A stretch of DNA of 64,000 nt from Candidatus Electrothrix aestuarii (GCA_032595685.2 CP159373.1:2910193-2974192); one strand, 5' to 3'; shown: positions 1-53,580, counted from the stretch's first letter. Made by a program: numbers and translations. The notes: generated by a model not told the origin, from the letters alone.

Positions 1-584
1 GGAGATACCGAGGAGCAAATTATTTCTGCGCCGTTGACCTGTCGGTTTCCTCCAAGAAGGAGTCGGTCTTCTTGCTGAAATGGCAGCTTGTCTTTGTCCC
101 CGTTATAGAAAAAAATGCCACTGAGTTGATAGGAGATCCCCTGTCTTCCCTGCACAGATTCGGTGAGGAAGAGCCTCCCAAGACTATTCTGCCCCTGTTC
201 GTGACTGCGAACAACCCCGTGCCGGAAAAGGGTAGGGGGAGGAAGGTGATCTACAGAAGTACCGGAGATGTCTCTCCAGGTAAATATATTTTTACCACCT
301 TGCATTTGGTTCATGACGGGAAGATAGCGGTACGTAGTTTGGGCTCCACCTGCTTCCAGAAAAAGATGTCCCAACCAGCAGTATTGGTTGACCGCACAAC
401 CAATTTCTCCCAATTGACCGGGCCAGCGTCCTGTTTTTTTCAAGAGAACAACTAAAGCACCCCAGAGAGTCCAGCCCGGTACATAGGGACGGCAGGGCAG
501 GATAAAGCCCCATCTTCCAGAACCCACATGCAGGCTGCCGGAAAGGAGAAAGGAAACATGATACCATTGTCCCTTCTCAGTCAT
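1..584 (-). CDS. Type III CRISPR RAMP protein, 3' end cut by window edge
   Basis: An open frame starts at ATG 584 and runs to the window edge without a stop, giving about 194 residues. It begins MTEKGQWYHVSFLLSGSLHV. Visible RAMP features are an early beta strand followed by a Gly-rich turn (HVGSGRWG), a 'yvpGwtLwGAL' segment like the 'IPGssLkGal' motif, and a late Gly-rich stretch (LLLGGNRQVNG). The start codon overlaps the end of the cmr5-like gene by 8 bp (ATGACTGA), so translational coupling is likely. It is the last visible gene of the effector operon. A Csx10/Cas5-like or Cmr6-like role is possible, but the subfamily cannot be assigned without the C-terminus. Confidence 0.8.
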   Translation of the reverse strand, partial: MTEKGQWYHVSFLLSGSLHVGSGRWGFILPCRPYVPGWTLWGALVVLLKKTGRWPGQLGEIGCAVNQYCWLGHLFLEAGGAQTTYRYLPVMNQMQGGKNIFTWRDISGTSVDHLPPPTLFRHGVVRSHEQGQNSLGRLFLTESVQGRQGISYQLSGIFFYNGDKDKLPFQQEDRLLLGGNRQVNGAEIICSSVS

Positions 585-930
585 TTTTCTCTTTGGTTTT
601 TGCGTAATATTTTGCGTAGCGCAGGACTTTGACCAATCTTTCCGTGTCACTCCAGACAGTTTCTATATCTCGTTGTTCAGGGGCCAGGCATTTGGAAAGA
701 GCAAGCTGTTCGGCAATTTCGCCCTGTAGAGCACTTCGGATGAATTTTCTTTCTCCTTTATTGCTGTCAATCCATAAGGCTAAGCCAATAGTGCCGAGTT
801 GACGCAGAGTGAGCATAGCGTCGCTGAGTATTGAGACCACATTTCCCTTGCTCTGTTGGGCGACAAAATGACTGTATACAGCTTCCCCCAAGGCAAGATA
901 GAGTGGTTCCTGATACTTGAATTCAGCCAT
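577..930 (-). CDS. cmr5: Cmr5-like small subunit of type III effector complex
   Basis: A 117-aa, mostly helical protein beginning MAEFKYQEPLYLALGEAVYS. It has the size and helical make-up of Cmr5/Csm2 small (Cas11) subunits, which line the inner face of the type III backbone and contact target RNA. The internal ATG at 930 is preferred to the upstream ATG at 969, because it overlaps the cmr4-like stop by 8 bp and lies behind a GAGG sequence. It sits between the cmr4-like gene and the partial RAMP gene, as in III-B and III-C operons. The call rests on size, helicity and position more than on a distinctive motif. Confidence 0.7.
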   Translation of the reverse strand: MAEFKYQEPLYLALGEAVYSHFVAQQSKGNVVSILSDAMLTLRQLGTIGLALWIDSNKGERKFIRSALQGEIAEQLALSKCLAPEQRDIETVWSDTERLVKVLRYAKYYAKTKEKND

Positions 931-1981
931 GACCGTTTTCCTCGGAGCTTGATGTGAAAGGTTCCACAAGCAGGGAACCTAAGCCCCTGGTCTGCATCCC
1001 GCCGATGCCCATGCGGGCAAAACCTTCGCAGGCAAGTGAGCAGACATCTAAAGGCGAGGAGGTACTTTTATTGATTTTTCCGCTAAAATGCTTTTCTATA
1101 TATATGCGGGAATAGAGCAGGCTGGCACGGGGAAGGGCTTCGTAACTGAACAGGGCTCCATCGGAGACCGTGCCGGTATCCTGATCCACCCGGTTACAGG
1201 TGCGCCGTTCCAGGCAGGTTTCTACAACTCGGTAGAAGTTTGTCTCATCCAAGAGTACAGTGCGATTTACTATATGCTGCCAGTACTCTGTTTCTGGAAA
1301 AGTGAGGTGCGTTGCGTTGCGTAGGGCGTCAATGACCTGTTGAATACCTTTGTCTTCTGTTGAACTCGTCAAACCGGTAAGATGAATCCAGCCGATCAGC
1401 AGCTCACCTCCTGTTATTTTTTCATTGATCGAGAGAGCCAGATGGTCGGTTCTGCTGACGAGCAGTTCTGGGTATTCCTGCTGCTCTGAATCCAGCCAGG
1501 CTGCTGCCCGTCCCGGAGTGGAAAACCAGACAGTTCCCTTGCTGGTTGCTGCCGGAAAAAAGGCCAGTCGGGCATCACGAAAATAGACCCTTCCTTCATG
1601 ACCGGGAATAGCTTTATCTTCGTTTTTCAGCTTGACTGAAGGATAGCCGAAGGTCTGGCAGATAGGGCAGGTAGTAATGCCGCAGTACTGTTCGCGGGAG
1701 CGTGGTCCATGAGGCTTTGTTGCATCTCCTTCCTGTTCGGCAGGTTGATCACCAGGACACGGCTTGTCCTTATTTCCGTCCATTTTCAGCTTCCAGGATG
1801 CATGTGCCCGAAATCCTCCTTTCAGGGCTGTGCCGGGAATGCGCGGTACATTGGTTTCACTTTCCCGGTCAATGGGCAGATCAACCTCTCCCATGATATC
1901 CTGCCCTACTCCGATGTGTAGCGGATCAAGGGTGAAAAATCTGAGCAGATATCTGTTGTCAGTCACGATCCGGCTCCTCAT
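923..1981 (-). CDS. cmr4: Cmr4-like Cas7 backbone RAMP subunit
   Basis: A 352-aa RAMP protein, the likely repeated backbone subunit that binds crRNA and cuts target RNA. The N-terminal motif reads LHIGVGQDIMGEVDLPIDRE followed by PRIPGTALKGGFR, the classical Cmr4/Csm3 pattern. Asp34 (in GEVDLPI) matches the catalytic Asp loop of the family, so target-RNA cleavage is probably intact. A Cys cluster (CGITTCPIC, about residues 100-108) may bind zinc. The C-terminal GIGGMQTRGLG is the Gly-rich RAMP loop, preceded by a VDQDTGTVSDGALF segment also seen in Csm3/Cmr4 relatives. The start overlaps the cas10 stop by 23 bp. Confidence 0.85.
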   Translation of the reverse strand: MRSRIVTDNRYLLRFFTLDPLHIGVGQDIMGEVDLPIDRESETNVPRIPGTALKGGFRAHASWKLKMDGNKDKPCPGDQPAEQEGDATKPHGPRSREQYCGITTCPICQTFGYPSVKLKNEDKAIPGHEGRVYFRDARLAFFPAATSKGTVWFSTPGRAAAWLDSEQQEYPELLVSRTDHLALSINEKITGGELLIGWIHLTGLTSSTEDKGIQQVIDALRNATHLTFPETEYWQHIVNRTVLLDETNFYRVVETCLERRTCNRVDQDTGTVSDGALFSYEALPRASLLYSRIYIEKHFSGKINKSTSSPLDVCSLACEGFARMGIGGMQTRGLGSLLVEPFTSSSEENGHG

Positions 1982-4850
1982 TCCACAGGTATTTTTTTGC
2001 TGTTGATGCCAGAAAAAAAGCGCCGTTCAGGCAACTTTCCTCCAGCAGTTTTTTCTTATCCTCAGGGAGATTCTGCCAGCCCGTAGGGCCGAAACGGGAG
2101 GGTTCACGCCAGAGGGTTCTGATGCTTTCCTGAAGAAAATTTTCCTGTTCCAATGGATTATTCTCATTTCCGGGCAGGTCGTCCTTGTGCCAGAGCTTCT
2201 CGCGCATGGCCAGAACAGATCGCATTTTGCGCTGCTGGGTCTCTGATATATTTTCCTGTTCAAGGCGAATCAGTTTTTTGAGGCTGGGCCAGTAGCCCAA
2301 GGGGATATCGTGGCAACGGCTCGGTTGCAGTTTCTCAGAGGGAAGCGTGAGCTCATCCAGGCTGAAACCGGAGCTTATTTCCACCACTGCAAGACGATTA
2401 TCGGTCATCCAGGCGGGTTGAGTGTCCTGTATCTCACCAAGGAATATCCACTTTCTTGCCTTTCCCTGGGTGTCCCGTTCAATGCAGATGTTGGCGTGAA
2501 ATTGGTCGTTGTTATTCATTATATTTTTTATATTTTCCGGCTGATGCTCCTGCGTACAGATCATGGGGAGAGGGTAAGTGAATTCTCGCTTACCCTTCCC
2601 GTCTTTTGTGAGTGTGTCTGTGCGCAGGATAGAAGTGCTTTCCCGCTCTCCCTGGCCGGTTCTGCTGAGGAAGACTTTTTTGGGTGTACTTTTCAGGCAA
2701 CTGTCCCGTAATCGTCTGGCTGCCTCCAGTACCAAATAGATGGGGACTCGATAAGGAAATATACATAAGGATACATGGAAGGGCATCCGGTCGCTGACCC
2801 TGCCGAACTCCTTTGTGAATTTCTCGTAGACCGCATCAAGGGCTTTACCAGCCTGTGCGGCTGGCAGGATGATCTGCAAATCCTGTGGCGCAAGCAGGAT
2901 GGTGCGCATCAGGTAAGGGCTCTGTTCTTCGTTGCTGTGTCCACAGATTTTACGAATCTGATTCCGAAGCTCCTGGAGAAATATTTCTGTGCTGCGCCAG
3001 ATGCGGCGGAAACGACCGAAACTGTTGAAGCGTTGAAAAGATTCGCTTTTTTCTTTTTTAATTTTTTTGTTTATGGTGCTTTGCTTTGCACCTTGGGCTG
3101 GCGAGGTATGGCAAAAAATCCCGGAGTTGGATGTTTCAGCCAGCCAGTCGGCCAGATGAAAGGAAACAGAGAGTAATACCAGGCGGTACTCAGAGGAGCC
3201 TGAGATCATTTTTTCTATGTCTCCGGTTTCGTTACTTCCTACCCGGTGGGGTTTGATTCGTTCTTGGCAGGTATTGCATTTTCGATGTTTGTTCGAAGGA
3301 ATACCTTGTCGCAGGCCACAGACGCCGCAGAGGTCATACGTGATTTCTTTTGTGGAGTGATCAGGAAATGTGAAAAATTCAACAGATCCTCCTCCAGCTT
3401 CCTCCTCCAGATTCCCCCCTTTTGCAAGGTTCAGCCAGGATATTTCTCTGCTCCAGTTGATGGCATTGGAAATATTGTTCAAGGTATTAAAAATTCGATT
3501 GTAACGCAGGCCGATCAATAATTCGATGCCGAAATGAACTCGTTCTTCAGGTCTTTCTTTAAAGGCCAGTTCCTGTAGCTCTTTTTGGGCTGTTGCAAAA
3601 AGCCATTCCACAAAATCGTGTTGAGTACATGCGTCTTCTGATGAAACCTTTTGCACTGATATCACTTGCTCGTTGTTTATATCGTTGATTGTACTCCAAC
3701 GTTTTTTGGGGTCACCAAGGGCAGGTATTATCAGGTGGGCTCCATGTTGATCTTTGTAGACCATACCGCCTACAGGGTACTTTATGGAAAACAGCTCCAG
3801 AAAATGTGTAAGAAGTTTATCCACTTCTTCCCGGATAGCAGTGATATCCTTGAGCTCCAGGGCCATATGGTCGAGCTTGTCGGCATTGACAGCACAGCTG
3901 AACGCAGCAAAGGAGGTTTGCTGACTCGGAACATCCTCACGCGGTCTTCGAACAGGCAGACAGTATGAAGCATGGCTCGGACGAGAGATGTTTTCAAGCA
4001 CCACCCTCGCGGCTTGTGCAACGCTTAATGCCGCAGTTGAGAGAGAGTGATCAGCAAGGGTCACATCATTGAGGGGTCTTGCGGTACGAATGATAGTGGC
4101 CCGGAACGGCTGTTCAATTTTCCTTTCGAGCAGTGCTGTTGCCTGCATCGGGTTATTGTTTTTTTCCAGTGCAGCAATAAGTTTTTTTATGTCCTCTGCA
4201 AAACGACAACCCGTTTCTGCGGATTGCAGAGGAAGGGCTTTTTCAAAGCCGAACGGTGTGCTGATAAGAACGGTTTTATCCGCTGCTGTATTCGGAGCAT
4301 GATGCCCCGAATAGTTATCACCTGCTGCCTCCATTTCGGTTTCATAACGGGTATCATTTCCATCAATACCGGCAACTCCGGAAATAAAAAGAAACAAGGC
4401 CGTGGCTTCTCCCGCTTCCTGTATACAATGAGGAGCGTCATGATGGAAGGTGAAAAAGTCATAGATTGAGTGACAGGGCGTTGTTTGCTCCAGCGCTATG
4501 TGCAGGCGTTCTTTCTTCCTTTTGTCCAGGTATGCCGCATAACAGGATGGTGCAGGAAAGAGGATAGCCGGAGCAGCCTTGAAATCTTCTTCGGTTCCGA
4601 GAATAGTATCACACCAGTGCTGCCTGTATTCTTTTCTTTTGACAGAGGCCTTGCCCGGTACATTTGAAGCATGATGATCTGTGTAATCCGGTACCTCGGC
4701 ACGTTTTTCTTTAGGCAGCAAAGACCATAACAGGTATTGGGAAAAACTCTTGTCACAATCATGCAGCAAGGCATTCACCCGTACATAGGCAAGAAAACGG
4801 CTGTGCTTCTCCAGCGCCTGCTCAATATCCTCTGCTCGGTTGCGGCTCAT
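1959..4850 (-). CDS. cas10: Cas10-family large subunit (Csx11-like) lacking the GGDD cyclase motif
   Basis: The 963-aa large subunit of the type III complex. An HD pair is visible at H30-D31 (NALLHDCDK), with a second Cas10-type segment, DVTLADHSLSTAAL, near 262-275. A zinc ribbon is formed by C508, C511, C525 and C528. In the palm domain, the place normally held by GGDD reads APQD (about 654-657), followed by the usual LQIILPA strand and a VSLCIFPYRVPIYLVLEAARR segment. The polymerase/cyclase site therefore looks dead while the HD nuclease may be active. Length over 900 aa, inactive palm and RAMP-rich context fit Csx11/type III-C. ATG overlaps the upstream RAMP stop (ATGA). Confidence 0.88.
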   Translation of the reverse strand: MSRNRAEDIEQALEKHSRFLAYVRVNALLHDCDKSFSQYLLWSLLPKEKRAEVPDYTDHHASNVPGKASVKRKEYRQHWCDTILGTEEDFKAAPAILFPAPSCYAAYLDKRKKERLHIALEQTTPCHSIYDFFTFHHDAPHCIQEAGEATALFLFISGVAGIDGNDTRYETEMEAAGDNYSGHHAPNTAADKTVLISTPFGFEKALPLQSAETGCRFAEDIKKLIAALEKNNNPMQATALLERKIEQPFRATIIRTARPLNDVTLADHSLSTAALSVAQAARVVLENISRPSHASYCLPVRRPREDVPSQQTSFAAFSCAVNADKLDHMALELKDITAIREEVDKLLTHFLELFSIKYPVGGMVYKDQHGAHLIIPALGDPKKRWSTINDINNEQVISVQKVSSEDACTQHDFVEWLFATAQKELQELAFKERPEERVHFGIELLIGLRYNRIFNTLNNISNAINWSREISWLNLAKGGNLEEEAGGGSVEFFTFPDHSTKEITYDLCGVCGLRQGIPSNKHRKCNTCQERIKPHRVGSNETGDIEKMISGSSEYRLVLLSVSFHLADWLAETSNSGIFCHTSPAQGAKQSTINKKIKKEKSESFQRFNSFGRFRRIWRSTEIFLQELRNQIRKICGHSNEEQSPYLMRTILLAPQDLQIILPAAQAGKALDAVYEKFTKEFGRVSDRMPFHVSLCIFPYRVPIYLVLEAARRLRDSCLKSTPKKVFLSRTGQGERESTSILRTDTLTKDGKGKREFTYPLPMICTQEHQPENIKNIMNNNDQFHANICIERDTQGKARKWIFLGEIQDTQPAWMTDNRLAVVEISSGFSLDELTLPSEKLQPSRCHDIPLGYWPSLKKLIRLEQENISETQQRKMRSVLAMREKLWHKDDLPGNENNPLEQENFLQESIRTLWREPSRFGPTGWQNLPEDKKKLLEESCLNGAFFLASTAKKYLWNEEPDRD

Positions 4851-5608
4851 CGGGAAGGCTCCAGAGAGGGGATGCAGGTCGTTATGGTCCGGGGTAGATC
4901 CGGGCCGGTTCGGACGGAGCAGGCAGCCAAGTGGATGCGGCCCCAGATCCCTGATTTTCCTCCGATGGTTGCCTCATGTTTTCCGATTGCCCGTGCAGCA
5001 AGAAAGAGGTTCTTGAGTATGTGTTCCGCTTTTTCCGGGGTAATTGCTTTGGGGAGGTAATCAATAAGTAGCTCGCAACGACTTTCTTTGTTGACCACTT
5101 CATAGGTGATCGGGCCGTGGGTCACCTTGCCGCTCTCAGGATCTCTCGGCGCGATCAGGGCCGTGTCTGTGCTGTTTAAAGGGAAAAGAGCATGGCGAAA
5201 TTTTAATTCGCCTTTACGCGCCTTGTCAGAGTTTCTTTCCACCGTCATATCTTCGTCTTCCGGCCCGAAGAGCCGGTCCTTCTCTCTTTCTTGCTCCTCG
5301 GGCCAGCAGGTGCGGAACAGGCGTTTCCAGGCTCCTGCCTTGGCCAGGGGGTTACCGGAGATCCAATCCCGGCAGAGGTGGTTATTAGGGATGTCGGTGC
5401 GGTGGTCACCGGATACCTTTTCCCGGCCAGCTCGGTCGCGTCCGGAAAAGAAAGGAGTTCGGAGTTCAAAGGTGCAGGAAAAACGGAATGAAGTGCCGGA
5501 GATATCCGGGCAGGGGAGAAAAGGTCGGGCAGAAGTCAGGGGGCTGTGTACGTTGTGTTCCCAGGGGACAGCCTGAAGCGGACGTTGAGCAGCCTGACAT
5601 TGCCTCAT
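4847..5608 (-). CDS. Cas7-like RAMP protein of type III effector operon
   Basis: A 253-aa RAMP-superfamily protein. The core starts near residue 40 (SFRFSCTFELRTPFFSGRD). It contains APRDPESGKVTHGPITYEVV, similar to the 'IDreTGta..GalFeyEvv' signature of Csm3/Cmr4, and a C-terminal Gly-rich loop EATIGGKSGIWGRI. It is therefore a Cas7-type RNA-binding subunit, possibly the Csm3- or Cmr6-like member of a III-C module. The first roughly 38 residues carry no RAMP features and no Shine-Dalgarno is visible before ATG 5608, so the true start may lie further in. The stop overlaps the cas10 start by 4 bp. Confidence 0.75.
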   Translation of the reverse strand: MRQCQAAQRPLQAVPWEHNVHSPLTSARPFLPCPDISGTSFRFSCTFELRTPFFSGRDRAGREKVSGDHRTDIPNNHLCRDWISGNPLAKAGAWKRLFRTCWPEEQEREKDRLFGPEDEDMTVERNSDKARKGELKFRHALFPLNSTDTALIAPRDPESGKVTHGPITYEVVNKESRCELLIDYLPKAITPEKAEHILKNLFLAARAIGKHEATIGGKSGIWGRIHLAACSVRTGPDLPRTITTCIPSLEPSR

Positions 5609-5622
5609 AATGGGGTGCCTGT

Positions 5623-6619
5623 TCAGATGGATTTCAGGAGAGTTTCGCAGCTGTGCAGCCAGGCATCCGGTGCCGGGTTGATTCGTGCCGGTGTCAATCT
5701 GCCCATGCTATCCGGTCGAACGGCAAAACGCAGTCGGACCAGCCAGCCGCCATCCTGTCGGATGAGGGGATGGGTAACATGGACAAACCCGGCATTATTT
5801 TTATTGCCGAAAAAAAAGCTCGGCCTTTTTTGATCGCGTAACCAGCGACGAATTTCGTAGCCGACAGGAGGGCCTTTCTGGCTGAGATAGTCGATGCTGT
5901 TTTTGTATCGGTGTTTACGCCAGGACTCTGTTACTTTTTCGATCTTGTCGCGAAAAAAAACTGTAAGTTCTTTAACGATATTCCGCTTCTCTTGCTGTGA
6001 ACGAAATATCTTCAGCAGCAAAGACCGGGTTGCTGCTTGGGAGGGTATGTGGACTCAGCGTTCGCCCCTGCACTTTTACCCATCCCAGACCGTTTTGCGG
6101 GGCTGCTCCCAGCCAGCCGTACTGGTGAATAAAGGCCATCAGCTCTTCGATTTCCTTGCGTATCATTTCTCCCTCTGTTCCGCCGAAAAAAGAGATTTTT
6201 CTGTCCTGGCGAAACGTCAGATTAATCTGTTTCCATTGATACGGTGTCTTTTGGGCCTGCCTGTCGTCCGCACGCGCAGAACAGGGCAAGGCCTCCCCTC
6301 GCACAGCATCTGTAATCTCCAGCCGGAACATCTTTTTCCAGTTGGTATCCCCGAAAAGTTGAACCACAGGACCGGCCTTGGCCAGCTCAAGGAGGAATTG
6401 GCGTTTGTTATGGGCTCCTTTTGCCGGGAGATCAAAGGAATAGGGTGGGTAGGATGGATTGTGCGGGTTGCTCTGCCAGGCCTGCATAGCCTTGAGGAGC
6501 CAGTACTGATAGCGAAGGCTGCCGAGGAGACCGGTAGCTTGCAATTCCGTATTCCGGTGATCACGATCGCCGGTGACGATTGGGGTAAGTGAGCTGATGG
6601 AATAGGAAAATGATTTCAT
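5623..6619 (-). pseudogene. cmr1: cmr1-like RAMP gene split by a frameshift
   Basis: Two overlapping frames together make one Cmr1-like protein. Frame 1 (start 6619, stop 5972; upstream ATG 6640 also possible) begins MKSFSYSISSLTPIVTGDRD and contains ELQATGLLGSLRYQYW, the Cmr1 'ratsllGslRww' motif, and the loop GWLGAAPQNGLGWVKV. Frame 2 (open from about 6021, stop 5623) gives SFFFGNKNNAGFVHVTHPLI, like Cmr1 C-termini. A single surplus base between about 5974 and 6021 would join them into roughly 340 residues, a normal Cmr1 length. It is the first gene of the effector operon, just past array 1. It may be a real mutation, a sequencing error or a recoding site; frame 2 alone has only a TTG start. 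Confidence 0.75.
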
Positions 6620-6671
6620 GAAAAAAGATGATAATGACATGAAATGGAAATTGCAAGGATTTTTTTGATCG

Positions 6672-6702
6672 TGTAGGGGCAGGTCCCTGTGCCTGCCCGA
6701 AA
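6672..6702. repeat. Dispersed GGGGCAGG/CCTGCCC palindrome
   Basis: A short imperfect palindrome (GGGGCAGG, loop, CCTGCCC) lies just upstream of cmr1. It belongs to a family seen at least nine more times in the window (near 6777, 8327, 8378, 8426, 9245, 12240, 14552, 24803, 24842 and 35435), always outside conserved domains. It resembles REP-type intergenic repeats. Confidence 0.6.
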
Positions 6703-6774
6703 TGGTCTGTTCCTGTGGCGGTACAAGGGCGAACACAGGGTTCTCCCCTGCGGATCTGTCATTATACCGTCACT

Positions 6775-6808
6775 GGGGCAGGTGTACGGCGCGCCGTGCC
6801 CCCACAGA
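6775..6808. repeat. Palindrome abutting the trailer end of CRISPR array 1
   Basis: A GC-rich palindrome centred on GGCGCGCC (GTACGGCGCGCCGTGCC) lies immediately next to the leader-distal repeat of array 1. Nearly the same sequence abuts the distal end of array 2 (8426-8458), and a relative (CACGGCATGCCGTG) abuts array 3 (12240-12262). It could act as a transcription end or be a hot spot for the dispersed palindrome family. Confidence 0.6.
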
Positions 6809-6810
6809 GG

Positions 6811-8001
6811 TATATAACCCAGGACGTCCCGGAGTGTCATTGTGACTTATGAAGAAGCACATGAGCATCGTAGTATTAAGTCATAACCCAGGACGTCCCG
6901 GAGTGTCATTGTGACACTAACGGGTAGTACATCTTGTTTTAGAAAAGTCATAACCCAGGACGTCCCGGAGTGTCATTGTGACACTGAACAAAGACCAAAG
7001 GTGAATAACATGGAACGTCATAACCCAGGACGTCCCGGAGTGTCATTGTGACGATTGTTCAACAAATGGTTGACCGAAGCAGTTCTGTCATAACCCAGGA
7101 CGTCCCGGAGTGTCATTGTGACAAGATATGTTCCCCTACGAAATTGATGAAAAGTCATAACCCAGGACGTCCCGGAGTGTCATTGTGACATGAGCAACAA
7201 CGTTATCAACAGTCCCTTAAAGTCATAACCCAGGACGTCCCGGAGTGTCATTGTGACAAGATATGTTCCCCTACGAAATTGATGAAAAGTCATAACCCAG
7301 GACGTCCCGGAGTGTCATTGTGACAAGATATGTTCCCCTACGAAATTGATGAAAAGTCATAACCCAGGACGTCCCGGAGTGTCATTGTGACGAAATGCGA
7401 TGGCTGATGCTTCATCCTCATGGTCATAACCCAGGACGTCCCGGAGTGTCATTGTGACGGAAGTACAAACATCTGAATGGGTTTGATTTGGTCATAACCC
7501 AGGACGTCCCGGAGTGTCATTGTGACGAAATGCGATGGCTGATGCTTCATCCTCATGGTCATAACCCAGGACGTCCCGGAGTGTCATTGTGACGGAAGTA
7601 CAAACATCTGAATGGGTTTGATTTGGTCATAACCCAGGACGTCCCGGAGTGTCATTGTGACGAAATGCGATGGCTGATGCTTCATCCTCATGGTCATAAC
7701 CCAGGACGTCCCGGAGTGTCATTGTGACGGGACGTAAGCATCTCGCATCTGCGTGTAGAGTCATAACCCAGGACGTCCCGGAGTGTCATTGTGACTCAAA
7801 AAGATGGTTTTTGTTATCTACCAAAAAGTCATAACCCAGGACGTCCCGGAGTGTCATTGTGACTTTAATATCAAGATAAGGATAAGGGGTTTTAAAATGT
7901 CATAACCCAGGACGTCCCGGAGTGTCATTGTGACCCTTCTCAGCAGGAACTAAATGAACTGCTCTGTCATAACCCAGGACGTCCCGGAGTGTCATTGTGA
8001 C
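6811..8001 (-). CRISPR. CRISPR array 1: 18 repeats, 17 spacers
   Basis: There are eighteen 36-bp repeats; on the plus strand each begins GTCATAACCCAGG and ends GTCATTGTGAC. Spacers are 31-35 bp. The distal repeat (6811-6846) is altered at its first and third bases (TATATAACCC), marking the trailer end. The conserved leader and promoter lie to the right, so transcription is on the minus strand. Three spacers recur: one starting AAGATATG occurs three times (7123, 7258, 7325), one starting GAAATGCG three times (7392, 7527, 7662), and one starting GGAAGTAC twice (7459, 7594). That leaves 12 distinct spacers. Processing is presumably by the Cas6 domain of the fusion protein at 9278-11914. Confidence 0.99.
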
Positions 8002-8283
8002 TCTGCCTCTTTTTGTACCCATGAAATCAGTTCCTTGTCAAGGGCTTTTTGTAGTACCTCCCTTCCCCACCCCTTTTCACCTCTATTTTGCACGAGGTCC
8101 TACACCGTGTTGGTTTTGGCGAATAATAGCGTAAACTCAATAAGATATCTATATTTTGAAAAGTTGGTTTAACTGCTTGATTCAAAAGGGTTTCCTGAAG
8201 AATTTTTCTGAAAAAGGCTCATTTTCCCCATTGGCAGGCAAAAAGGCCTCCAAAATGCCCGAAATCCGACCTAGGATTTTTTG
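8002..8283 (-). promoter_or_regulatory. CRISPR leader of array 1 with promoter
   Basis: About 282 bp are nearly identical to the sequences next to arrays 2 and 3, which defines the leader. On the minus strand a -35 TTGACA (8036-8041), an 18-bp spacer and a -10 TACAAA (8012-8017) sit so that transcription would start at or just before the first repeat. Conservation ends near 8283, after which the three copies diverge. No gene is present; short frames here run into repeat sequence. Confidence 0.9.
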
Positions 8284-8459
8284 AGACCAATATTTAAACC
8301 GAATATTAAAGAAATACCCGGAATTTCGTAGGGGCAGACCTGTGTGTCTGCCCGGTATAACCGGGGAGGAAATTCAGGGTACACACACAGGTGCGCCCCT
8401 ACAAATCGCAATAAATTCGGCATAGGGTAGGTGTACGGCGCGCCGTGCCCCTACAGAGG
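8284..8459. repeat. Intergenic palindromes between leader 1 and array 2
   Basis: This stretch has no gene. It holds three members of the dispersed palindrome family: GGGGCAGAC...GTCTGCCC near 8327-8357, ACACACAGGTGCGCCCC near 8380-8402, and the GGCGCGCC palindrome at 8426-8458 that touches the distal repeat of array 2. Confidence 0.6.
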
Positions 8460-8910
8460 TATATAACCCAGGACGTCCCGGAGTGTCATTGTGACGATAA
8501 TGACACCTGCTGGGCGGAGCGTCGAATTCGTCATAACCCAGGACGTCCCGGAGTGTCATTGTGACTGAATAAAATAGATTCACAAAAAACTTGAAATAGT
8601 CATAACCCAGGACGTCCCGGAGTGTCATTGTGACAGAAGACTGCATGTGTGATGCATGCTGGCAAGAGGGTCATAACCCAGGACGTCCCGGAGTGTCATT
8701 GTGACAGGTATCACAATGAGAAAAGTGGTTTTAGCAGTGTCATAACCCAGGACGTCCCGGAGTGTCATTGTGACGTTATGAAAAGACTCATAATGGTGAC
8801 AATATTGTCATAACCCAGGACGTCCCGGAGTGTCATTGTGACAATTACGCATGTATGATCCTAATCCGGAGAAAGTCATAACCCAGGACGTCCCGGAGTG
8901 TCATTGTGAC
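8460..8910 (-). CRISPR. CRISPR array 2: 7 repeats, 6 spacers
   Basis: Seven copies of the same 36-bp repeat as array 1, with six distinct spacers of 32-35 bp. The distal repeat (8460-8495) has the same two changes (TATATAACCC) as the distal repeat of array 1, and the adjoining palindrome is nearly identical. This indicates that the two arrays arose by duplication of an array end. The leader and promoter lie on the right, so transcription is on the minus strand. Confidence 0.99.
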
Positions 8911-9193
8911 TCTGCCTCTTTTTGTACCCATGAAATCAGTTTCTTGTCAAGGGCTTTTTGTAGTACCTCCCTTCCCCACCCCCTTTTCACCTCTATTTTG
9001 CACGAGGTCCTACACCGTGTTGGTTTTGCCGAATAATAGCGTAAACTCAATAAGATATTTATATTCTGAGAAGTTAGCTTAACTGCTTGATTCAAAAGGG
9101 TTTCCTGAAGAATTTTTCTGAAAAAGGCTCATTTTCCCCATTGGCAGGCAAAAAGGCCTCCAAAATGCCCGAAATCCGACCCAGGATTTTTCC
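8911..9193 (-). promoter_or_regulatory. CRISPR leader of array 2 with promoter
   Basis: Second copy of the leader. On the minus strand TTGACA lies at 8945-8950 and TACAAA at 8921-8926, with an 18-bp spacer. It differs from leader 1 at scattered positions only. The 84 bp between it and the Cas6-RT-Cas1 stop hold only AT-rich sequence and half of a dispersed palindrome. Confidence 0.9.
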
Positions 9194-9277
9194 AGGGTAA
9201 TATTCTTTCCTAATATTAATTAAATACCTGTGAAAATGGAGGGAAGAACCCTGTGCCTGCCCGAAATGCCGATCATC

Positions 9278-11914
9278 TCATTCCTTTTCATAGGAACGGG
9301 CATTATACCAGAGCAGGCGCTTCTTGTCCCGGGCCCAGGCAGCAATGACTCCAACCTGGGCCACCAGTAACTGCTTCAGAGTGCCGGGTTCGCCGGTCAG
9401 GCGCAGGGAGAGCTCGCGCTCGAAATAATCGAGAAAACGTCCTGATGCCTGCCGGTTCAGGCGCACACCACCACGGGTGTCCTCCTCGAAATCCCTGGCC
9501 TGAATGATGCGGAGGTTGAGCAACCGCAAGACCATCCTGTCCATGCGGCAGCGGAACAACTCCTGGAGGTCCGCAACCAGGGATTCGTAGCTGTCCTGTC
9601 GACTATGGAGAATGCCGAGATAGGGGTTCAGGCCTCTGGTCCGCACCAGTACGTTCAGTTTGCAGAACAGAAGAAAGGAGGCAAAGTCCAATAGGGAGTT
9701 GTAGGGATCAGCCCGGCAATGACAGATCCTGGTCCGGGCCTGGAAAAATGTCTGTCCTTCCTCCTCCTGCACCAGGGAATTGACTGCCCGGAAGAGCAGT
9801 TTGGTGGCCCTGCCTTCATGACCCAGGACCTCGTTCAAATCTGCGCAATGGCTCAGGGCGATAAGGGTCTGCTCCAGTTTCGGGAGGAGTTCCCGAGCCT
9901 CCGGTTCCCGCCGTCCCTGGAGCCAGACCAGGTAGTTTTCTATTTTGGCGGTCACGAGCTCCGTAGCGATTTTCACCTGTTCTGTTGCGGACAGGGCAGC
10001 ATGCTGATTGCTGTGCTCGGCAAGAAGATGGAAAAAATTACGGGAATCCGGTTTGAGAGTATTGACATAGAGACCGGCAGGCGAGCAGAAGGAGACCGGA
10101 ATATGCTCTTGGGAGCAACGTTGCAGCAGGCGGGTGGACAGGGTATTGGCACCGAACAGAACAATGCCGCTGATACAATGAACAGGCAGGCGGGCCAGGA
10201 CCTCTTTTCCCTTTCTGATGACAATGCTTTGGCTGTCAATGCCGAGAAAGGCGTACTGCTCCTGCACAAAAAGAGTCTTTTTCAGGGTGGTGCGCTCAAC
10301 AAACTCCTCGTCTATCATGGCTCCGAATTCCAGGCCGAGAAAGGTGAAACCCATATCCAGCGGCTGGAGAATTGTCTTTTCCTCCTGCAAGGAAAGCCCC
10401 AGCGGCTCCAGCAGGATGCGGATATCAGCCAGTGCCACCTCGCCTTCAGTCGGGGAGCGGAGCATAATCACGAAATCATCACCATAGCGCACAACCCGAT
10501 AGCCCATTGCAGCCAATTGCTCATCAAAATCATCCAGGTAGAGATTGGAGAGCAGCGGGGAAAGCGGGCTGCCCTGGAGCAGGCCTTTGTCACGGGGGAT
10601 GATGCCTTCCGGTCCGGCAACCTGGGTTCGTATGCATTGCCGCAGAAGCTGGCGCATCCGGGTGTCGGCAAGGGGCAGGACGGCATCCAGCTTGTCCTCC
10701 AGATTTTGCCAGCAGATCTGGTCGAAAAAGGAGGCGATATCTGCTTTGAGCACGTAGCTGAATCCTTCGTGAAATGCCTCAATGATCCGTTTTTTGGCCA
10801 TGTTGCGGGAACGGTGCGGTCGATAGCCAATGACTGCGTCGGTGAATAATTTGTCCAGGACCGGGCTGAGCAGGGTGTTGAGCAGGAAATGAATGAAATG
10901 GCCTTCTGCTGGCAGGATGGCGATACTGCGCAGGCTCCCGTCCTTTTTCGGAATACCGGCATGATGAGCTGGCCCGAGGTTCAGGCGCTGATCCAGCAGG
11001 GCCTGATGGAATTCCTCTTCCGCCTGTTCCGGAGCCAACAGCTCACCGGCAATATCGGTCTCGTGGTCACTCTGTTCCAGGAAGTCACGGCGCAGGCCGA
11101 GAAAGAGGGTGCGGTCAGTGAGCTGCGACTCAAAAAAAACACGGTTATGGATGAGCCGATAATGGCCCAGGCCAAAGGAGCTGCGTCTGCCGCTACTGAT
11201 TTCTGAGCAGAGCAGGAGAAGGGGATAGACAGGGCTGATGTCGCCCCGGAGATAGAGAGGGCCGACGGTTCCGTTCAGATATTGTTTTCCCTGATTACTG
11301 CCGGAATCCCGTCGGCGTTCATAGTATTCCCAATAGCAGGAGAGCAACCGTAACCCGGCCCAGGTGGCCTCAATGCCGGGCAGGTGCAGATTGAAGGTCC
11401 GTTTGATCCGGGCCTCCAGCTTGCGGAAAAAGATGTCCCGGTCAATGAGATGGCGCTGGCTCCGCTCTTTGGGGGTAAAGGGCAAAGGCGTGATGAAATC
11501 CAGGCAGATTTCCTGTGCGTTGAGCAGGGGATTTTCTTGGAGCAGATCATTCAGGGAGCGGGGGCGGGCAGGCGCATGACTGTGCAGGGCAAAGTTGTTG
11601 CGGGGATTATTCAGGTGTTCGCTGAGTCCGCTGAGAAAGCGGGGGCCGATAGTGTTGTCGCTGCCCGGGAAGACCAGTTCCAGGGGATAGAGTGTGTTTT
11701 TGCGGATGCGCTCGTCCGGCGGTCCTTCCAAGGGGTGATAAAAATATTCATGATGTGCAATGCCTGCCCGTTTGGCAGCCTCTTTGCAAATGGCGGCAAA
11801 CACAGCCAGAGGGTGCTGGCGGGCAAAGGTGTTGCGGGTGTTGCGCAGTTCGAGACGGAGAGTTTGCCAGGAAAGATCAAGCAGGGGCCGGAAACAGGGA
11901 AGGATTTCTTGCAT
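9278..11914 (-). CDS. cas1: Cas6-reverse transcriptase-Cas1 triple fusion
   Basis: An 878-aa adaptation protein. Residues 1 to about 260 form a Cas6-like RAMP domain ending in the Gly-rich loop SSGRRSSFGLGHYRL (about 239-253), which would process pre-crRNA. Residues 300 to about 535 form a group II intron-like RT: IPKKDGSLRSIAI, ADIASFF with Asp392, GLLQGSPLSPLLSNLYL and YGDD at 477-480. Residues about 545-875 form Cas1: the GHEGRA Glu (E700), the YLGILHS His (H770) and the ADLQE Asp/Glu (782/785) match its metal ligands. Such fusions can acquire spacers from RNA. Cas2 lies directly upstream, and no separate cas6 is present. All catalytic motifs look intact. Confidence 0.97.
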   Translation of the reverse strand: MQEILPCFRPLLDLSWQTLRLELRNTRNTFARQHPLAVFAAICKEAAKRAGIAHHEYFYHPLEGPPDERIRKNTLYPLELVFPGSDNTIGPRFLSGLSEHLNNPRNNFALHSHAPARPRSLNDLLQENPLLNAQEICLDFITPLPFTPKERSQRHLIDRDIFFRKLEARIKRTFNLHLPGIEATWAGLRLLSCYWEYYERRRDSGSNQGKQYLNGTVGPLYLRGDISPVYPLLLLCSEISSGRRSSFGLGHYRLIHNRVFFESQLTDRTLFLGLRRDFLEQSDHETDIAGELLAPEQAEEEFHQALLDQRLNLGPAHHAGIPKKDGSLRSIAILPAEGHFIHFLLNTLLSPVLDKLFTDAVIGYRPHRSRNMAKKRIIEAFHEGFSYVLKADIASFFDQICWQNLEDKLDAVLPLADTRMRQLLRQCIRTQVAGPEGIIPRDKGLLQGSPLSPLLSNLYLDDFDEQLAAMGYRVVRYGDDFVIMLRSPTEGEVALADIRILLEPLGLSLQEEKTILQPLDMGFTFLGLEFGAMIDEEFVERTTLKKTLFVQEQYAFLGIDSQSIVIRKGKEVLARLPVHCISGIVLFGANTLSTRLLQRCSQEHIPVSFCSPAGLYVNTLKPDSRNFFHLLAEHSNQHAALSATEQVKIATELVTAKIENYLVWLQGRREPEARELLPKLEQTLIALSHCADLNEVLGHEGRATKLLFRAVNSLVQEEEGQTFFQARTRICHCRADPYNSLLDFASFLLFCKLNVLVRTRGLNPYLGILHSRQDSYESLVADLQELFRCRMDRMVLRLLNLRIIQARDFEEDTRGGVRLNRQASGRFLDYFERELSLRLTGEPGTLKQLLVAQVGVIAAWARDKKRLLWYNARSYEKE

Positions 11915-11941
11915 GATCGGGAAGATAACTTTGCAATGAAA

Positions 11942-12223
11942 TCAGACGATAAAGGCATAGCCGCTGTCCGGGGAAGGCGGGGCCGTGCCGATTTCACAAC
12001 GTTTTGCCTGCTTGTTGAGATGATAGATCTGGAGGAAGCCGCTTTGCAGGTTCAGCTTTTCCAGTTCCTCTTCCAGCTTTGCCTTGCCGCTTGCTGAGAG
12101 GGAGCATTCAAAGACCGATTTCTGGACCCGGAAGCCGTATCCGCTCAGCACCTTGCTGACCCGGTTCCGTTCCCGTTGGTTGCTGATATCATAGGCGATC
12201 ACGTATCGGCTGAAGTTGCTCAT
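11942..12223 (-). CDS. cas2: Cas2 adaptation protein
   Basis: A 93-aa protein beginning MSNFSRYVIAYDISNQRERN. The 'viaYDIs..rerNrv' opening is the Cas2 ferredoxin-fold strand with its conserved Asp (D12), and VQKSVFECSLS matches the second conserved segment. It bridges two Cas1 dimers in spacer integration. It lies 27 bp upstream of the Cas6-RT-Cas1 gene on the same strand and just downstream of array 3, so the two adaptation genes may be transcribed from the array 3 leader or from a promoter in the 45-bp gap. Confidence 0.95.
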   Translation of the reverse strand: MSNFSRYVIAYDISNQRERNRVSKVLSGYGFRVQKSVFECSLSASGKAKLEEELEKLNLQSGFLQIYHLNKQAKRCEIGTAPPSPDSGYAFIV

Positions 12224-12239
12224 AGTATAAGGGGAGGGA

Positions 12240-12264
12240 GGGACACGGCATGCCGTGCCCCTCC
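12240..12264. repeat. Palindrome between cas2 and array 3
   Basis: GGGACACGGCATGCCGTGCC forms a perfect inner inverted repeat centred on GCATGC. It occupies the same place relative to array 3 as the GGCGCGCC palindromes next to arrays 1 and 2, and lies within 20 bp of the cas2 start. Confidence 0.6.
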
Positions 12265-12267
12265 TGT

Positions 12268-12511
12268 GTCATAACCCAGGACGTCCCGGAGTGTCATTGT
12301 GACATGACCGCAATTGTTTGTTTTTTGGTTCTGGGTCATAACCCAGGACGTCCCGGAGTGTCATTGTGACGCTACAAATTATATCTACCCAATACTACTA
12401 AAAACGTCATAACCCAGGACGTCCCGGAGTGTCATTGTGACAAATGGAGAAATAAAATGTTGCAGTTGCAAAAAAGTCATAACCCAGGACGTCCCGGAGT
12501 GTCATTGTGAC
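12268..12511 (-). CRISPR. CRISPR array 3: 4 repeats, 3 spacers
   Basis: Four copies of the same 36-bp repeat with three spacers of 31, 35 and 34 bp. Unlike arrays 1 and 2, the distal repeat (12268-12303) is intact. The array lies upstream of cas2 with its leader on the right, so it is read on the minus strand toward cas2. The short length with an intact leader suggests either a young array or loss of spacers. Confidence 0.98.
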
Positions 12512-12793
12512 TCTGCCTCTTTTTGTACCCATGAAATCAGTTCCTTGTCAAGCACTTTTTGTAGTACCTCCCTTCCCCAACCCCTTTTCACCTCCATTTT
12601 ACCGGAGGTCCTACACTGTGTTGGTTTTGTCGAATAATAACGTAAACTCAATGAGATATTTATTTTCTAAAAAGTTAGTTTAACTGCTTGATTCAAAAGG
12701 GTTTCCTGAAGAATTTTTCTGAAAAAGGCTCATTTTTCCCTTTGGCAGGCAAAAAGGCCGTCAAAATGCCCGGAATCCGACCCAGGATTTTTT
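12512..12793 (-). promoter_or_regulatory. CRISPR leader of array 3 with promoter
   Basis: Third copy of the leader. On the minus strand TTGACA is at 12546-12551 and TACAAA at 12522-12527, with the same 18-bp spacing. Conservation with the other leaders ends about 25 bp before the IS element at 12824, so the insertion did not cut into the leader. Confidence 0.9.
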
Positions 12794-12823
12794 GACGCCA
12801 AGAATATAACAGAACATTAAATA

Positions 12824-14477
12824 GATTGTCCTTAAAAACTCTCAGCGCGCTGATTTTAAATGAAAAAGTTATAAAAATATTGTAAAATATGCATACTTTT
12901 GACGTTCACCCCTCATAAGGCATGCACATGATCAGGTACACCAGTGACAGACAGCTTACACTTGAAGGATTCAGCCTTCCCTTTGGAGGCAAACTGAACC
13001 CTGACAACAGATGGATCAAATGGCATAAAGTTATTCCGTGGGATGAGTTCGCCATCAGATATTACCGAACATTGGACCCGCGTCAGGGGCGACCTGCCAA
13101 AAATGCCAGATTGGTGATCGGCGCGTTAATCATTAAACATAAGCTGACGCTCAGTGACGAAGAAACCGTACTCCAGATTCAGGAGAACCCCTATCTTCAG
13201 TATTTTGTTGGGTTTTCTTCTTTTCAAGACAAGCAACCTCTAGCTCCGAGCCTGTTTGTTGAGATTCGAAAACGGATGGGAAAGGATGTCTTTTCTGCGT
13301 TTGAAGAAGTGATTTTGGAAAAACTTGCTCTCTCAAAGAAAAGTACGACAAATGAAGATGAAAAAGAGGATAAGGGTGAGGAAGAGCCCGTTGAAAATAA
13401 GGGGAAAATGCTTGTCGATGCAACGGTTGCTGAGCAAGCGATTCGTTACCCGACTGATCTGAGTTTACTCAACGAAGCTCGTGAGATTTCCGAGCAGCTG
13501 ATTGATGATCTGTACAAACAGAGTGGCTACCCCAAAAAGCCCAGGACATATCGGAGAGTTGCTCGCAAAAACTACCTGAATCTGGCTAAAAAAAGAAACC
13601 AGGCAAAAAAATCTGCGGCGCGGACTTCGGCAGCAATTACAGTACGTCCGAAGAAATTTACGATATATTGATGAGTTGCTTGATAATGTTGGATCGGCAC
13701 CTTTTCCACTTCCCCATCAGCAACAACGACAGTATTGGATCATTCAGCATGTGTATCGCCAGCAGGATGAGATGTACAAAAAACGAAAACGACGCTGCGA
13801 TGACCGAATTGTTTCCATTGCCCAACCTCATGTACGACCAATAGTTCGTGGGAAAGCAGGTAAAAATGTGGAGTTCGGTGCCAAACTCAGCGTGAGCATG
13901 GTCGATGGTTTGGCTTTTGTCGATCATATTGGTTGGGATGCCTTCAACGAAGGCACGGATTTGCAGGCGCAGGTGGAAAACTACAAACGCCGAAATGGCT
14001 ACTATCCTGCTGCAGTGCTTGCTGATCAAATTTACGGAACAAGAGAAAATCGTAAATATCTCAAAGAGAAAGGCATTCGATTTGGTGGTAAACGAATGGG
14101 CAGGTCCCCGAAAGAGACAGAAGAAAACAAAGAACGTCTTCGGGAACTGAAAGCACAACGGATTCGGGATAGTCGAGAACGGATCCCCATTGAGGGAAAT
14201 TTGGCCAAGGAAAAAACGGCTACCGACTCAACTACATCCGGGCAAAACTTCAGAGAACCTCTGAAGCATGGATTAACTGTATTTTCCTGGTCATGAATCT
14301 GATGGTTCTGCTCAGGAAGTTGCAGGAACAGCTTGAAAATTTATATCTTTCACGGTTTTTACTTTTACGCAGCCAGCTGAATCATATTAGCGCTCGATTT
14401 TTTGCGTTCTTTGAGCAAATGCCAAGGCAAGTCCTGCAGTATTGCCTGTATGAGAGGTTGGCTTTTTGAGGATGCTC
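12824..14477 (+). mobile_element. IS5-like insertion sequence, copy 1 (1654 bp)
   Basis: The element starts GATTGTCCTTAAAAAC and ends GGATGCTC. The ends form imperfect inverted repeats (GATTGTCCTTAAAAA against GAGCATCCTCAAAAA). It is flanked by the 6-bp direct repeat TAAATA (12818-12823 and 14478-14483), a target duplication. A near-identical copy lies at 41869-43522. It carries one DDE transposase gene in two frames. It separates the CRISPR locus from the unknown membrane protein gene at 14730. Confidence 0.93.
12922..14469 (+). pseudogene. IS5-like DDE transposase, copy 1, frameshifted
   Basis: The first frame (12922-13671, 249 aa) carries the DUF772-like N-terminus and the first Asp (MLVDAT). 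The family-like sequence then continues one base over (LRRGLRQQLQYVRRNLRYID), after an A7 run at 13605-13611. The second frame holds SMVDGLAFVDHIGWDAF and AVLADQIYGT (second Asp). It breaks again near 14195, where copy 2 has GGGG and this copy GGG, just before the Glu motif EGKFGQGK. The A7 break is shared with copy 2 and may be a slippage site; the lost G is private to this copy. As it stands this copy cannot make a full transposase. Confidence 0.85.
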
Positions 14478-17119: not shown

Positions 17120-17926
17120 TTAGGGGCAACAAGAGGTAGGGGGCGGACAGCAAGCCGGTTTAGGTTTCGGTTTCGGTTTCGGTAATGGTGGAGGGCAATT
17201 GCCACTACCATATCGAGGAGCTGAACCATATTTAGAATATGATGAGCGTACCATTGCTGAAGGGGTATATGTTGTTGAGGGAACAACATATCGAGGCATT
17301 GACGTCGTGACGACAGAGGGAACTGTCATCCTGGTTACTGGTCTCGTTATAGTTGTTGATGGATAGCTGTAGCGTTTGCTGATATAGCTTGATGGTGCAA
17401 TGTAGCTTCTCCCCATTGAGCGAACTATAGGGGCAGGCTGTACTATAGAGGAGTAGGGACGAGTAATTGGTGTAGATGTTCTAACCACCACAGGTGCGTA
17501 GGTGCGGGTGACGGTCCTGGAGTTTCGAATCACAGGCGTATAATTGCGAGTAACCGGTTGAGACCTCCGAATCACAGGTGTATAAGTGCGAGTAACCGGT
17601 TGAGACCTTCGAATTACAGGTGTATAGGTCCGGGAAATTGGCTTAGACCTCCGAATCACAGGCGTATAAGTGCGAGTAACCGGCTTAGACCTCCGAACCA
17701 CTGGCGCGTAGGTACGTGTAACAGGCCGGGAAGAGCGAACAACTGGATCAGATACATATGTACGCCGTACAGGGACCGCTACTCTGTTTCCTGTATGGGT
17801 TGTCGTGGAAACGCTCTGCGTTGTCGATGTGAACGTATGCACCGTCTGCGACGTTGGACCTGAATATCCGCATGCTGTTACCAGTCCAGCAGCAAGTACT
17901 GAGGTGAGTAACGAGGTTATCTTCAT
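17120..17926 (-). CDS. Lipoprotein with 13-residue tandem repeats
   Basis: A 268-aa predicted lipoprotein with lipobox VTAC (Cys19). Residues about 55-145 consist of seven tandem 13-aa repeats with consensus RRSxPVTRTYTPV, encoded by 39-bp DNA repeats (about 17490-17750). The C-terminus is Pro/Lys-rich (PPPLPKPKPKPKP) and ends CCPPPTSCCP. The segment after the lipid Cys (SQTVHTFTSTTQSVSTTTHTG) resembles the 55-aa lipoprotein directly upstream, suggesting duplication. Strongly basic Arg/Thr/Tyr repeats suggest a cell-wall or periplasmic binding role. The repeat number is likely to vary between strains. Confidence 0.8.
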   Translation of the reverse strand: MKITSLLTSVLAAGLVTACGYSGPTSQTVHTFTSTTQSVSTTTHTGNRVAVPVRRTYVSDPVVRSSRPVTRTYAPVVRRSKPVTRTYTPVIRRSKPISRTYTPVIRRSQPVTRTYTPVIRRSQPVTRNYTPVIRNSRTVTRTYAPVVVRTSTPITRPYSSIVQPAPIVRSMGRSYIAPSSYISKRYSYPSTTITRPVTRMTVPSVVTTSMPRYVVPSTTYTPSAMVRSSYSKYGSAPRYGSGNCPPPLPKPKPKPKPACCPPPTSCCP

Positions 17927-53389: not shown

Positions 53390-53580
53390 GTCATAGTCGC
53401 AGCATTCCGCCCGGCGTTGAAACACCGGGCTATTTTCTGTCGTCCCTTTGGGACTTTTGTCCCGGAGGGACATTCGATCATAGCCCAGTGATTTATCGCT
53501 GGGCGGCCTGGGGCAATTCTTGCCCTATATTGCCCTTTCAGGGCATCGGTATCCTGAATGCCGGGAAGAGTCCGCAAGAG
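53390..53580. repeat. Clustered short hairpins downstream of NACHT copy 1
   Basis: Several small inverted repeats in a row: CCCGG...CCGGG near 53410-53430, GTCCCTTTGGGAC and GTCCCGGAGGGAC near 53440-53472, CCCAGTGATTTATCGCTGGG near 53483-53503, and GCCCTTTCAGGGC near 53531-53543. The GTTGAAACRCCGGG element recurs at 54161. No gene is present from 53328 to 54365. Confidence 0.65.

Follow-up and report, generated by a model that had tools for sequence, protein, structure and literature searches.

In Marinomonas, the complex of Cas2 with a Cas1 fused to a reverse transcriptase (RT) adds 3' tails of about 4 nt, mainly dA, to RNA protospacers, which enables their integration, and the resulting RNA-derived spacers retain noncoded bases at the spacer-repeat junctions (PMC11014452). 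Among RT-linked spacers in general, almost none have been traced, and the choice between transcripts, unknown RNA and a random process as their source was left undecided (Silas et al. 2017, PMC5513706). The literature is also at odds over whether type III-C systems ever carry RTs: III-C has been called a possible exception to the RT association (Silas et al. 2017, PMC5513706), lumped with III-B in an RT survey (Toro et al. 2017, PMC5541045) and listed among the RT-associated subtypes (Toro et al. 2019, PMC6753606). III-C loci lack cyclase sites, and half of them keep the HD motif (Hoikkala et al. 2024, PMC11229360). Here we describe a locus of Candidatus Electrothrix aestuarii, located in a 64,000-nt stretch of the genome (GCA_032595685.2, CP159373.1:2910193-2974192; hereafter, the window), in which a gene for a Cas6-RT-Cas1 fusion, cas2 and three clustered regularly interspaced short palindromic repeats (CRISPR) arrays adjoin a III-C effector operon. 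An earlier reading of the window from the sequence alone (the sequence-only reading) had pointed to the triple fusion and suggested that RNA acquisition is coupled here to a cyclase-dead effector. We estimate at roughly 0.6 the probability that the locus is a self-contained III-C system with an RNA-capturing adaptation enzyme.

The Cas6-RT-Cas1 fusion and the III-C operon

The open reading frame of 878 amino acids (aa) matches three Pfam domains, CRISPR_Cas6 (residues 138-252, E = 6e-8), RVT_1 (321-529, E = 1e-25) and Cas_Cas1 (548-832, E = 3e-56), and cas2 lies directly upstream on the same, minus strand (Table 1). Both the domain composition, with Cas6, RT and Cas1 in one protein accompanied by Cas2 (Pfam, NCBIfam), and the intact YxDD motif and E/H/D/E residues of Cas1 identify the protein as a member of the Cas6-RT-Cas1 group, and the triple fusion with Cas2 and three arrays recognized in the sequence-only reading is borne out. 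The active-site residues named in that reading are likewise where it placed them: the Gly-rich loop of the Cas6 domain (SSFGLGHYRL), the YGDD of the RT (residues 477-480) and E700, H770, D782 and E785 of Cas1 are all present and all invariant in an 81%-identical relative from another genome of the genus (G479, locus L009). The top PDB match of the fusion in a phmmer search is 7KFT, a Cas6-RT-Cas1 (E = 2e-49) which we take to come from Thiomicrospira, the PDB title giving only the domain composition. A phylogeny of the RT domain had been proposed as a check; in the resulting tree, the fusion RT groups with 7KFT and G510, apart from other RT-Cas1 and group II intron RTs (95/95 at the fork) and separately from the second RT-Cas1 of the same genome, in a sequence set that includes some long branches and lacks the named clade references (RT-CRISPR clade 8, Toro et al. 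2017). An AlphaFold2 model of the fusion, built from a two-sequence alignment, was discarded (predicted local distance difference test score, 32).

The effector operon starts at position 6736, to the left of the arrays, and extends beyond the window on that side; once the neighbouring DNA is included, the III-C operon is complete, with the order Cmr1-Cmr6-Csx11/Cas10c-Cmr4-Cmr5-Cmr3 on one strand. Cmr1, Cmr3, Cmr4 and Cmr6 are identified by profile and Cmr5 by position alone. The Cas10c/Csx11 protein scores 126.9 bits with TIGR02682, under the curated cut-off of 248.95, and, judging by its profile match and motifs, is a divergent member of this family. It keeps the HD motif (residues 30-31, LLHDCDK), zinc-binding CxxC pairs (508/525) and the C-terminal palm, and lacks GGDD; in an alignment with the Cas10c proteins of other Desulfobacterota, the corresponding site reads APQDLQIILPA, and none of the other aligned Cas10c has GGDD there. 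Taken together with the report of Hoikkala et al., this shows that the loss of the cyclase is a trait of the III-C family and not an oddity of this locus. Thus, the III-C identity and the dead cyclase were correctly recognized in the sequence-only reading (PADLOC Cas10c, operon order, no GGDD-like motif), the latter being the rule in III-C and no novelty. The HD motif is conserved in the Cas10c of both this genome and the relative G495, and the Asp of the target-cleavage loop of Cmr4 is conserved as well (EVDLPIDR); at the level of the locus, these intact sites agree with the suggestion that immunity rests on direct cleavage alone, but the genome also encodes a I-C system as well as a III-D system whose effector is CorA. 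A sequence search found no PDB relative of Cas10c. The cmr1 gene is split into two frames with a 50-bp overlap (window 5623-6736); the split is kept in two other genomes, G530 and G495, where tblastn matches to the C-terminal part show 94% and 53% identity, respectively, and the same overlap. The two frames may represent either two genes or a programmed frameshift.

The locus is present in four genomes of the genus, namely, the host (G000, a single 5.11-Mb contig), G479, G530 and G495. In G479, Cas6-RT-Cas1 and Cas2 are 81% and 87% identical to those of the window and the contig ends within Cmr1; the G530 locus is 99% identical to that of the window; and the G495 effector is more distant (Cas10, 54-62%; Cmr4, 83%). 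The III-C operon adjoins the arrays, leaders and Cas6-RT-Cas1 in three of these genomes and, in the fourth, does so as the part preserved at the contig end.

Composition, strand and ends of the spacers

Searches for protospacers were negative throughout: no spacer had one in 50,697 phage records, six exact patterns had none in IMG/VR, and in the genomes of the genus the sole match outside arrays (85% over 30 nt, E = 0.03, in G570) was taken as chance. Because no source was found, the spacer sequences themselves were tested. The set consists of 74 unique spacers from the four genomes, read as CRISPR RNA (crRNA); the tests were picked after the spacers had been viewed and were applied to this same set.

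The guanine-cytosine (GC) content of the spacers is 0.347, compared with 0.50 for the window and 0.47 and 0.45 for the I-C and III-D spacers of the same genome. The crRNA strand is pyrimidine-rich in 55 spacers and purine-rich in 18 (p = 1.7e-5). Open frames on the target strand number 135, against 108.2 +/- 5.5 in dinucleotide shuffles (z = 4.9), and those on the crRNA strand are at expectation (z = -0.5). The coding signal of the target strand is seen in each genome alone (z = 2.6, 3.1, 3.5 and 4.0, mononucleotide shuffles) and persists after trimming of 4-6 nt from both ends (z = 4.5 and 3.9). Taken as a set, the crRNAs are thus mostly complementary to protein-coding sequence. Shine-Dalgarno motifs followed by ATG were not in significant excess in the target strands (5 against 2.2 expected, standard deviation 1.5). 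The sequence-only reading had proposed to examine the strand bias of protospacers; carried out on spacer composition for want of protospacers, this check favours acquisition from RNA, given the coding-like target strand.

The spacers also have distinctive ends, a feature absent from the sequence-only reading. Homopolymers of A or T of at least 4 nt that start at the first base of the crRNA strand, which is the 3' end of the coding strand, occur in 18 of the 74 spacers, compared with 2.4 in shuffles (maximum 9); 11 of these are T runs and seven are A runs. The excess holds under column permutation, which keeps the positional composition (p = 0.001 for T and for A), and there is no excess of internal A/T runs in the 74 spacers. 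Furthermore, position 3 is A or T in 70 of 74 spacers (p = 6e-11), in all four genomes, and position -4 in 64 of 74.

Control arrays were compared, with the caveat that the control taxa differ from the host, so that host effects are possible. Neither the end pattern nor the pyrimidine bias is seen in the I-C spacers of the same genome or in the arrays of the RT-less III-C loci of G205 and G365 (104 spacers); the III-D RT-Cas1 spacers of the same genome are pyrimidine-biased (19:7) and lack the 5' end pattern. In G568, which has a distant Cas6-RT-Cas1 and a III-D-type effector, the spacers have 35% GC compared with 53% for the locus, are pyrimidine-rich in a ratio of 12:2 and give a target-strand z of 1.8. 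Judging by G568, AT-richness and strand bias seem to follow the Cas6-RT-Cas1 lineage, and the end fingerprint is found only in the host genus.

Proposed RNA capture and its alternatives

If the locus is indeed a self-contained RNA-capturing system, Cas6-RT-Cas1 and Cas2 would bind short AT-rich pieces of transcripts, the adaptation complex would add a few non-templated deoxynucleotides to the RNA 3' ends, and the tailed pieces would be integrated at the leader end of one of the three arrays and then copied into DNA. The pre-crRNA would be cut by the Cas6 domain, as suggested by the domain itself, its retention in two deletion mutants (see below) and the lack of any other cas6 gene in the locus. 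The conserved active sites and the biology of III-C suggest that crRNAs antisense to the mRNA of an invader could then load onto Cmr1-Cmr6-Cas10c-Cmr4-Cmr5-Cmr3, with Cmr4 cutting the target RNA and binding licensing the HD nuclease of Cas10c; no cyclic nucleotide signal would be expected from this effector. By analogy with Marinomonas, the spacer ends fit this scheme, a 5' T run on the crRNA strand being a 3' A run on the coding strand, the place where a dA tail would sit; the seven A-run spacers would need dT tails or U-rich RNA ends. The proposal that the arrays keep a readable record of RNA capture, consisting of non-templated A/T tails at the RNA 3' end and a fixed A/T three bases in, is tentative, and we would give it somewhat less than an even chance.

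Several observations weigh against RNA capture. Without a protospacer from the above searches, there is no direct readout of RNA origin or strand. The excess of 3' T runs does not go beyond positional composition under column permutation, the G568 spacers show no excess of end homopolymers (1/16), and the arrays at the RT-less III-C loci of G205 and G365 show a coding signal too, albeit a weaker one (target strand z = 3.6, crRNA strand z = 2.0). The Marinomonas RT-Cas1 does not prefer T-type tails, unlike what the 5' A runs would call for (PMC11014452), and takes up spacers in either orientation, the antisense bias being no more than moderate (PMC5576922). Finally, selection yields strand bias in RT-less type III systems as well (PMC7515739, PMC8482600), strong bias having been reported to arise from unbiased acquisition (PMC7515739); strand bias alone is therefore no proof of RNA capture.

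In the strongest competing explanation, which we consider rather unlikely, the spacers would be derived from DNA through the Cas1 half of the protein, with the RT contributing little; later selection would produce the strand bias, since protection would come only from crRNAs antisense to transcripts, and the AT-richness would mirror that of AT-rich phages. Beyond the weaker target-strand signal in the RT-less arrays, this explanation is in line with the finding that, elsewhere, the targets identified for RT-linked spacers are mostly DNA phages (PMC5513706). Selection acting on spacers taken from DNA could account for the strand bias, but it does not extend to the end pattern: selection for targeting predicts neither A or T at position 3 in 95% of the spacers nor homopolymers that begin at the first base and do not occur inside. 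The end pattern would be a trait of acquisition, harder to obtain by selection, for which a DNA-end preference of Cas1 could be an alternative source; a fixed A/T preference at protospacer ends could still yield the bias at position 3. Nor does this competing explanation account for the higher GC content of the I-C (47%) and III-D (45%) spacers of the same host.

If the arrays do keep such a record of RNA capture, RNA-derived spacers could be recognized without a protospacer, and an RNA-capturing module works with a signalling-dead III-C effector. The protospacer-free statistics used here reveal coding content of the targeted strand and an acquisition fingerprint at the spacer ends; these features argue against random sequence, can be looked for in any RT-Cas1 array and bear on the long-standing puzzle of the source of RT-linked spacers.

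Natural deletion variants and array organization

Two natural deletion variants separate Cas6 from RT and Cas1. In G530, the fusion ends after residue 521, beside a truncated leader, with the loss of the Cas1 domain; in G495, only the Cas6 domain is kept, to residue 278, with the Gly-rich loop intact, beside a repeat and a truncated leader. Both genomes retain Cas2 as well as the genes of the effector. Read most simply, this pattern assigns Cas6 and the effector to existing immunity, and RT and Cas1 to acquisition. The truncations lie at different points of the fusion (L088 ~11930-11952; L092 ~11000-11030), and in both cases the adjoining leader is truncated at one and the same motif, TTTTTGTA, as would be seen if recombination or mis-integration took place at leader ends.

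The same variants might be taken to mean that the adaptation module is decaying in this lineage, with mostly static arrays and selection maintaining Cas6 processing and the III-C effector. The truncations at leader/repeat junctions, next to which Cas6 and the effector stay open, and the growth of array 1 partly by spacer duplication are compatible with decay, but the window and G479 retain all catalytic residues of RT and Cas1 at 81% identity, and the arrays of the genomes have almost no spacers in common, so that acquisition continued after the split; we regard decay as improbable. It is still far less plausible that the three arrays serve the III-D system of the genome (L101/L011), with the III-C operon as a passenger: the handle at the end of the III-D repeat is similar (GGGTTACGAC vs GGGTTATGAC), so that crRNAs might be shared, but the III-D system possesses its own Cas6, RT-Cas1 and arrays, and the arrays considered here are, with their leaders and Cas6-RT-Cas1, adjacent to a complete or partial III-C operon in all four genomes.

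The three arrays have one common 36-nt repeat, and each has the same leader of about 300 bp on its right. Arrays 1 and 2 each have a degenerate repeat at the far left, from which it follows that the leader is the right-hand element and that the arrays, like the cas genes, run on the minus strand. No promoter above chance was found in the leaders. Blocks of spacers are duplicated in array 1 (window 7123-7692; three spacers, 2-3 copies each), pointing to growth or rearrangement by recombination. An identical spacer is present in G000 (window 12442-12475) and G495 (L092:9186-9219), the arrays being otherwise different and the effectors only 54-83% identical. Palindromic extragenic elements of the GTACGGCGCGCCGTGCCCC type lie directly at the trailer ends of all three arrays (6776-6810, 8425-8459 and 12233-12267), and similar elements are found near the arrays in L009. 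Array 3 is adjoined by a fragment of an IS5-family transposase (window 12922-13671; NF033578, about half of the profile).

Table 1. Features of the III-C locus, with coordinates in the window
Feature	Coordinates	Strand	Evidence and remarks
Cmr3 (Cas5), cut by window edge	1..650	-	PADLOC Cmr3 E 1e-15; entire gene L010:14893-15843
Putative Cmr5 (Cas11)	577..969	-	Position only, without profile match; Anabaena III-C has a small ORF (open reading frame) between cmr4 and cmr3
Cmr4 (Cas7 backbone)	923..1981	-	TIGR02580 E 2e-30; alignment
Cas10c/Csx11, 963 aa	1959..4850	-	TIGR02682 E 8e-37; PADLOC Cas10c E 2e-47; motif alignment
Cmr6 (RAMP)	4847..5608	-	PADLOC Cmr6 E 6e-14
Probable C-terminal part of Cmr1, overlapping frame	5623..6021	-	tblastn; no profile match of its own
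Cmr1 (RAMP), first part	5972..6736	-	TIGR01894 E 9e-7; PADLOC Cmr1
CRISPR array 1	6811..8001	-	18 repeats of 36 nt, 17 spacers (several duplicated)
Leader of array 1 (end approximate)	8002..8300	-	300-bp family D3, 74% to reference copy
CRISPR array 2	8460..8910	-	7 repeats, 6 spacers
Leader of array 2 (end approximate)	8911..9210	-	300-bp family D3
Cas6-RT-Cas1 fusion, 878 aa	9278..11914	-	Pfam domains, motif residues, phmmer match to PDB 7kft
Cas2, 93 aa	11942..12223	-	Pfam CRISPR_Cas2 E 1e-16; TIGR01573
CRISPR array 3	12268..12511	-	4 repeats, 3 spacers; leader-proximal spacer also in G495
Leader of array 3 (end approximate)	12512..12810	-	300-bp family D3, 93%

Other systems and features

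The genome carries, in addition to the I-C system, a second RT-equipped type III system (L101:11702-19616 and L011:78-13452; G000:C1 ~3.354-3.376 Mb). It includes Cas6, a CorA-like effector, a short, 530-aa Cas10, a Cas5/Cas7-like protein of 507 aa and a multi-Cas7 protein of 1257 aa, for which the III-E gRAMP profile gives a match as well (E = 9e-56), together with arrays of its own and an RT-Cas1 that belongs to another RT clade. By its gene content, this system looks III-D2-like, and it is possibly informative for the origins of III-E. The window further contains an Rfam match to the Acido-Lenti-1 RNA (53410-53455, plus strand, 49.1 bits) and tandem 42-nt repeats (17490-17741) within a minus-strand ORF (17120-17926), where they encode a 14-residue protein repeat. 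In G568, a 12.2-kb contig with Cas10 and Cas7 genes and Cas6-RT-Cas1 (L091, G568:C90) has identical 81-bp ends, possibly reflecting circular DNA or an assembly loop.

Comparison with known systems

To gauge how rare an RT next to III-C is, we searched 395 Desulfobacterota genomes with a Cas10c profile, which gave matches, some of them weak, in 24. Among 20 of these 24 genomes (the host included), only the present locus and G146 have an RT match in the vicinity of Cas10c (about 10 kb or less). The latter has a III-C operon with separate RT, Cas1 and Cas2 genes (same order) and is the only other III-C locus with an adjoining RT in the sample; its RT is unfused, apparently frameshifted and on another RT branch, and its spacers have 52% GC and lack the end signature. 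Searches of plasmids with RT-Cas1 and Cas10c returned only a distant RT-Cas1 (III-A, Pseudanabaena) and RT-less III-C. The pairing of an RT with III-C is thus a rare variant but not an unprecedented one. The sequence-only reading had considered the combination of RNA acquisition with a cyclase-dead effector noteworthy; the combination is rare but not unique (G146; Toro et al. 2019), and the loss of the cyclase is normal for III-C.

The Cas6-RT-Cas1/Cas2 of 7KFT/7KFU, the best PDB match, falls in the same RT clade as the fusion described here, but has FADD in place of YGDD at the RT site, and identity is low outside the RT. On the effector side, the III-C system of the Anabaena cylindrica plasmid pANACY.02 (Cmr1, Cmr6, Csx11, Cmr4, Cmr5, Cmr3) has the same gene order and a Csx11-family Cas10; neither adaptation genes nor an RT are annotated within 15 kb of it, and no array was detected there; the present locus differs further in its shorter Cmr6 and in having Cmr1 in two frames. 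The III-B system of Marinomonas mediterranea MMB-1 has the same triple fusion with Cas2, and the spacer ends in Electrothrix resemble the products of its tailing activity. In MMB-1, acquisition of spacers from RNA and 3'-dN tailing were demonstrated experimentally (PMC5576922, PMC11014452), whereas the system described here is known from sequence alone; the MMB-1 effector is III-B, and the one described here is III-C, without the cyclase motif. The locus provides a III-C counterpart to the III-A, III-B and III-D systems with Cas6-RT-Cas1.

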